Shown: one piece after another, positions 39,332 through 39,512 of the stretch
Layout: every line of letters begins with the position of its first letter
Position numbering within the stretch: the stretch's first letter is position 1
Assembly (NCBI GenBank): GCA_035539175.1
Contig: DATLIY010000007.1
Location: 682,001-746,000 of the forward strand
Direction of reading: 5' to 3'
Source of the DNA: Acidisarcina sp.
GTDB lineage: Bacteria > Acidobacteriota > Terriglobia > Terriglobales > Acidobacteriaceae
DNA: 64,000 nucleotides
The notes under the pieces: model-generated
What the model saw: the letters and a program-made list of their open reading frames with translations, nothing else
Database searches by the model: none
What the model was told of the DNA's origin: nothing
Position numbers and translations under genes: made by a program

Positions 39332-39512
39332 AAATTTCTTTTGTTGAGTGCCCCCGCTTCATGTCTTGCGCGGCGGGCAGGGGCGAGGCGGGTTCGGTCA
39401 AGGGCGGCGTTTGTTGCCGTTCATCGAGCGTCAGCGAAGACCCTTGACGGGTTCCGACCGGCTTTGCCATAAAGCCGCATGAAGCGGGGGCACTCGATGA
39501 AAGAAGAAATTT
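39332..39512. repeat. Long inverted repeat enclosing about 115 bp
   Basis: GAGTGCCCCCGCTTCATG (39346-39363) has a perfect reverse complement at 39478-39495. The symmetry continues outward imperfectly, with AAATTTCTTT at 39332 against AAAGAAGAAATTT ending at 39512, so the arms are about 31-34 nt. The interior is GC-rich with smaller hairpins, such as GGCG-TTTGTT-GCC at 39406-39418 and CAAGGG/CCCTTG. No gene explains it. It could be a structured RNA, an origin-type structure or a small non-autonomous element. Confidence 0.75.

Follow-up and report, generated by a model that had tools for sequence, protein, structure and literature searches.

A covarying hairpin ahead of ardC in conjugative elements of Acidobacteriaceae, a candidate single-stranded DNA promoter

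A large inverted repeat lies in the gap between an ardC gene and a SPARDA defence operon of Acidisarcina sp., and it raises the question of what such a structure does at this position. An earlier, sequence-only reading of the locus had named three possibilities: a regulatory RNA, an origin and a small mobile element. We analysed the repeat within the window (the whole stretch of 64,000 nt that was studied) and in related genomes, and from sequence we hold with moderate confidence that the hairpin, termed R1, is an Frpo-like promoter that would act on single-stranded DNA (ssDNA) for early expression of ArdC upon conjugative entry. Frpo promoters drive early genes on incoming ssDNA (PMC9849209, PMC11541004), and expression of ardC from R388 is required in the recipient (PMC7213743). 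The ssDNA promoters in the cited literature are mostly those of enterobacterial plasmids, largely found through similarity to F. The repeat and its surroundings are composed as follows.

36195..37862, − strand: ParB-like gene of the ardC operon (family search)
37871..38293, − strand: DUF6908 gene of the ardC operon (family search)
38290..39258, − strand: ardC (ArdcN, PF08401), the gene found downstream of nearly all strong copies of the hairpin
39259..39331, − strand: ardC leader of 73 nt, with AGGAG directly before the ATG at 39258
39332..39512, + strand (the folding strand): conserved hairpin of the R1 family, defined by folding, model and covariation
39346..39363, + strand: 5' arm, perfectly repeated over 18 nt and at 89% complementarity over 28 nt (39336-39363)
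39397..39403, + strand: GTCAAGG, paired with CCTTGAC in the apical stem and nearly invariant in the alignment
39478..39495, + strand: 3' arm, perfectly repeated over 18 nt and at 89% complementarity over 28 nt (39478-39505)
39513..39624, no strand: block of conservation outside the hairpin, toward the cargo, with GCGGGC-N8-GCCCGC (39548-39567) and, at its end, the palindrome GGGAGGAGACCTCCTCCC (39607-39624)
39718..42494, + strand: divergent cargo of the window copy, SPARDA (DREN-APAZ, short pAgo)

The description on which the earlier suggestions were built proved sound. The 18-nt perfect arms, separated by 114 nt, do continue outward into the 28-nt arms listed above, and the outermost limits of the repeat are AAATTT...AAATTT at 39332/39512. 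The ORF lists contain no convincing gene that would account for the repeat, and the gap is indeed divergent, flanked on its left by ArdC and on its right by SPARDA (DUF4365/DREN-APAZ and short pAgo). The listed ArdC ORF starts at TTG 39333; with AGGAG upstream of it, ATG 39258 is the likelier start.

Within the 64-kb window, no perfect inverted repeat with a spacing of up to 400 is longer than that of the R1 hairpin, and no 181-nt segment of the + strand folds more stably (−104.3 kcal/mol; the window averages −57 with an sd of 9, and the runner-up reaches −90.9). The z-scores of folding were −6.8 on the + strand and −5.3 on the − strand. A tRNA search found none, and for the hairpin Rfam gave no match at the gathering score; its sub-threshold microRNA match was taken as an artefact of the long stem. 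Elsewhere in the window, the second most stable fold lies at 14401-14600, with a 17-nt perfect inverted repeat at 14531-14576, and two cobalamin riboswitches are present on the − strand (5258-5425 and 8367-8544).

A BLAST search with the 231-nt region returned matches in 17 of 200 genomes and one more copy in the genome of the window (C10, 89%); a search for copies elsewhere in the genome had been proposed in the sequence-only reading. Among 300 sampled genomes of the family Acidobacteriaceae, an R1 covariance model built on 11 copies detected the hairpin in 67, which represent 27 of 79 genera; phylum-wide, it was found in only 4 of 396 genomes, of which three belong to this family. The named records with the core pattern are Acidobacteria, including Acidobacteriaceae (Acidipila rosea, whose cultured strain DSM 103428 has the copy L166, and a Granulicella MAG), and the hairpin had no match in the plasmid collection (blastn) or in the viral collection. 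The copies are interrelated, so that these counts are not counts of independent events, and many come from metagenome bins. The apical module GTCAAGGGTCT...GATGAACGCGC...GCGCGCCCTTGAC recurs on its own in other hairpins and contexts (L110, L111, L091, L112, L113 and L084), one match belonging to another family of the phylum; these six loci, which have the TTGAC stem and loops only, were excluded from R1.

What the copies share is the gene behind them. A same-strand ArdC lies downstream of 44 of the 47 strong R1 copies, in most cases starting 59–138 nt from the hairpin, and these ArdC genes fall into two subtypes that are about 30% identical where aligned; at one further locus (L114) a related hairpin precedes an ArdC that is 40% identical. 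The three exceptions are L041, which lacks an ArdC match, L104, where an IS110-type gene intervenes before an ardC-like start, and L106, where the lower stem is disrupted and a transposase-like gene is nearby. Since nearly all strong copies adjoin ardC and are not dispersed in unrelated contexts, a self-mobile or miniature mobile element is unsupported.

On the cargo side, simple ORF calling showed the nearest ORF to be divergent in 34 of 40 R1 copies. The cargo varies: SPARDA, a type I methylase, PrrC-like, PHP-ATPase and toxin-like genes and others were seen, several of them named by eye. Similarity among copies fades about 110 nt beyond the hairpin, where the window copy has the palindrome GGGAGGAGACCTCCTCCC, a possible cargo boundary. 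Behind SPARDA, the window encodes a PDC-S31-like protein together with HamA and HamB, which form a Hachiman pair (42491-47589).

We aligned the 47 R1 copies with MAFFT (alignment A3). Among the 49 predicted pairs, 17 had changed on both sides, and double-sided changes filled 90 cells as compared with 27.7 in shuffles (0/500); when partners were slid by 1–3 columns, the fit was lost. Thus the doubt that had attended the repeat from the start, that it might be neither conserved nor covarying in related elements, is answered by a family that is both. Read on the + strand, the paired positions of 46 distinct copies contained 258 G.T and 19 A.C pairs. Because the scored structure came from the + strand, we applied two controls to this count: the union of both strands' structures gave 263 G.T against 30 A.C, and the pairs predicted on both strands gave 15 against 4. 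The consensus energy was −52.8 on the + strand and −19.7 on the − strand, and single copies likewise fold better on the + strand in nearly all cases. The excess of G.T over A.C therefore shows that the template strand of ardC, the + strand, is the folding strand and the one kept foldable.

Promoter-like boxes lie within this folded strand.

39362..39370, + strand: internal loop of the 5' arm; in the model, the template near +1 of the ardC transcript would be unpaired here
39444..39449, + strand: TTGACG, putative −35, with TTGAC in duplex and a presumed non-template role within the hairpin
39468..39473, + strand: CATAAA, putative −10 at a spacer of 18, with ATAAA in a 5-nt bulge

In most copies the 3' arm carries a fixed site, TTGACG-N18-CATAAA or the variants CACAAA, TAGACC and GATAAA. 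In the modelled fold, TTGAC is duplexed with GTCAA, the −10 hexamer is mostly in the bulge, and the predicted start is opposite the unpaired loop of the 5' arm; boxes folded in this manner would send polymerase across the base of the hairpin into ardC. When double-stranded, the same boxes point to the cargo. In the ardC direction, the double-stranded form has no box pair of comparable conservation; some copies have a weak pair, CTGAAA-18-TAAATT, that lies at the edge next to the cargo and points to ardC. The −10 of R1 is a poor one and differs among copies, CATAAA fitting the sigma-70 consensus at only 4 of 6 positions, and a strict scan of 39200-39720 returned neither a sigma-70 site nor a terminator. 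Folding with DNA parameters retained the lower stem of the window copy and gave a competing local hairpin that covers the −10. A simple box scan of the Frpo regions of F recovered nothing convincing, and the geometry is therefore read without a positive control.

The polarity of transfer bears on which strand would enter the recipient, and the following genes of the window are relevant to it.

48690..51479, − strand: TrwC-type MOBF relaxase, co-oriented with ardC
51467..53695, − strand: TrwB coupling protein
53641..53930, − strand: small TrwA-like gene, then TCAGGTGCACC palindromes; candidate oriT neighbourhood
54361-55326: RepB-type primase (family search)

Relaxases with at least 50% identity to the TrwC of the window lie on the strand of ardC on 24 of 24 contigs, either upstream or downstream; a distant relative (32%, 34 kb away, G113:C3) has the opposite orientation. 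The relaxase is mostly upstream of the hairpin in ArdC1-type elements and downstream of it in ArdC2-type elements, the latter with trwA-trwB-trwC in the order of R388. In ArdC2-type elements about 4–9 kb separate ardC from trwA, and ardC is on the side expected; in ArdC1-type elements it is on the other side of trwC. An ArdC1-type ardC may be far from oriT and outside a leading region. In F, the leading and tra genes examined are also co-oriented, and both are read from the transferred strand as template. Together, the co-orientation in 24 of 24 contigs and the polarity of F and R388 point to the + strand as the one transferred; because oriT was not found, this call rests on the analogy with F and R388. 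A scan for R388-type nic motifs gave no convincing match. The repeated TCAGGTGCACC palindromes at 53858-53930, behind the TrwA-like gene, are a candidate for oriT or for an operator. Beyond the right end of the window and past the T4SS, an integrase-like ORF (named by eye) and a small preceding ORF (69552-70823 in window-based coordinates, G000:C7) probably mark the right part of the integrative conjugative element (ICE).

A second hairpin family was obtained by folding the sequence ahead of 20 ardC genes that lack R1, four of which had another hairpin, R2, in common. The other strand folded better in 19 of the 20, a bias that base composition can produce, and only R2, with its own model, was therefore taken as evidence. 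The R2 model found 14 copies in 12 of 300 genomes, 11 of them with an ArdC (30–74% identical by tblastn) 54–118 nt downstream, and relaxases were co-oriented with ardC in 4 of 4 cases. Most close members contain TTGACA-N19-TATAGT, TAGAGT or TAAAGT, a better −10 than that of R1, and distant members are without a clear −10. The folds place the −35 in duplex and, in several, the core of the −10 in unpaired sequence, the same layout as in R1. Covariation extended to 26 pairs and 66 cells as compared with 15.2 in shuffles, in an alignment fitted to the R2 model; there was no clear G.T strand bias. By inspection, R1 and R2 have no evident sequence similarity beyond the GTCAA/TTGAC stem. Other strong hairpins were seen upstream of more ardC genes (L197, L179, L187, L182 and L190), that of L197 containing TTGACG and TCTGCTATGG.

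The reading that we prefer would run as follows. The carriers would be MOBF ICEs of soil Acidobacteriaceae. On entry into the recipient as a single + strand, the region would fold, and its stem would rebuild a promoter in cis, with TTGACG duplexed, the −10 bulged and the start opposite a loop of unpaired template. From an initiation point in the lower stem, the RNA polymerase of the host would then cross the base of the hairpin into the 5' single-stranded flank, giving a transcript that covers ardC, DUF6908 and parB. With polymerase starting on ssDNA into ardC, the anti-restriction protein would precede second-strand synthesis and the action of type I enzymes. In this chain we infer the transferred strand, the recognition by polymerase and the timing. 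That R1 acts as ssDNA, on the transferred strand, is probable. More tentatively, R1 could be a switch set by the strand state, the ssDNA hairpin serving as a pre-melted ardC promoter and the boxes in double-stranded DNA firing the opposite way into exchangeable defence cargo, with such promoters evolved or recruited at least twice (R1 and R2).

If the Frpo-like reading is true, ssDNA promoters also occur in unrelated sequences and in chromosomal ICEs of a phylum that is distant and little studied, and the arrival of ArdC ahead of restriction is accounted for. Such promoters might then be detected without similarity, by a G.T bias on the template strand, a duplex −35, an unpaired −10 and a fixed relaxase orientation. 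Because the cargo is often a defence system, this small element may also mark the junction between anti-defence and defence genes.

The Frpo/ssi regions of F, ColIb-P9 and their relatives are likewise large hairpins before early anti-restriction and SSB genes (PMC9849209, PMC11541004, PMC7690428), genes that are co-oriented with tra, and their boxes are in the folded strand that is the gene's template. At Frpo2 of F, upstream of ssb, the T-strand folds better than its complement (−178.5 vs −159.8), as the + strand does at R1. They differ in that R1 is about 180 nt long, compared with the 328 bp reported for Frpo, and is found before ardC in chromosomal ICEs of Acidobacteriaceae, where its promoter role is predicted. 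Since blastn showed no sequence similarity to known Frpo/ssi in the plasmid collection, R1 is classed not as an Frpo homologue but as an element that would work alike. R388 also has a MOBF relaxase with the order trwA-trwB-trwC, and it raises ardC right after conjugation through a repressed double-stranded promoter that overshoots (ArdK, StbA) (PMC3937220). Titles and abstracts, with incomplete coverage, yielded no ssDNA promoters for ArdC in Acidobacteria or ICEs. R1 and R2 appear to be new sequence families of a promoter kind that is already known.

Among the earlier suggestions, an origin has a place as a possible priming site. A single-strand initiation site (ssi/sso), at which the folded T-strand recruits primase or RNA polymerase for the second strand and the nearness of ardC is secondary, would likewise require folded ssDNA of fixed polarity, and the element does encode a RepB-type primase. 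Frpo itself also makes primers (PMC7690428), and the sso1 of ICEBs1 is a folded, orientation-dependent ssDNA element in an ICE, although it primes replication and has no described tie to ardC (PMC4595007). We nevertheless regard this explanation as unlikely, because priming would call neither for a position some 75 nt ahead of ardC, kept in two element layouts and across several ArdC subtypes, nor for two dissimilar hairpin families that are both linked to ardC.

A structured RNA from the + strand, either a small RNA or the leader of a divergent cargo transcript, would agree with the G.U-rich covarying fold on that strand. No conserved + strand promoter for the whole hairpin was found, however, with 75 nt outside it scanned, which makes a regulatory RNA less likely; the internal boxes would yield an RNA lacking the 5' arm, the cargo is unrelated among copies while ardC is constant, and Rfam offered no credible match. 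We judge this reading to be distinctly improbable.

The closest known ardC-associated structure is EGeRS1 of the pLS20 family, which has large inverted repeats directly before ardC and no clear double-stranded promoter (PMC8708921), and R1 might be a folded regulatory region of that type, acting on mRNA or the T-strand. EGeRS1, however, comprises 400–600 bp with many inverted repeats in Gram-positive hosts, in contrast to a single stem of about 180 nt here, and it is not an ssDNA promoter because its transferred strand is the non-template strand, the opposite of what is indicated for R1 by analogy (PMC8708921). The folding strand of R1 is moreover the template, the mRNA strand folding less well, and we give this type of region very little probability.

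A protein-binding or recombination site that needs the hairpin (oriT, attC-like or for cargo exchange) could be read from the variable cargo, the similarity that fades about 110 nt outside and an IS110 insertion in the apical stem of one copy, but it is highly doubtful, since R1 and the relaxase are usually some 10–20 kb apart, the region next to trwA is a better candidate for oriT, and attC sites are unlike a hairpin with perfect arms.

The IS110-type element just mentioned is located inside the apical stem of its hairpin at CCCTT/GA (L044:5770-7529, L046:4065-5824 and L047). Its captured boxes fit, without proving, a working double-stranded promoter toward its transposase: upstream of that gene, the same element carries a captured half-hairpin with TTGACG-N18 boxes.
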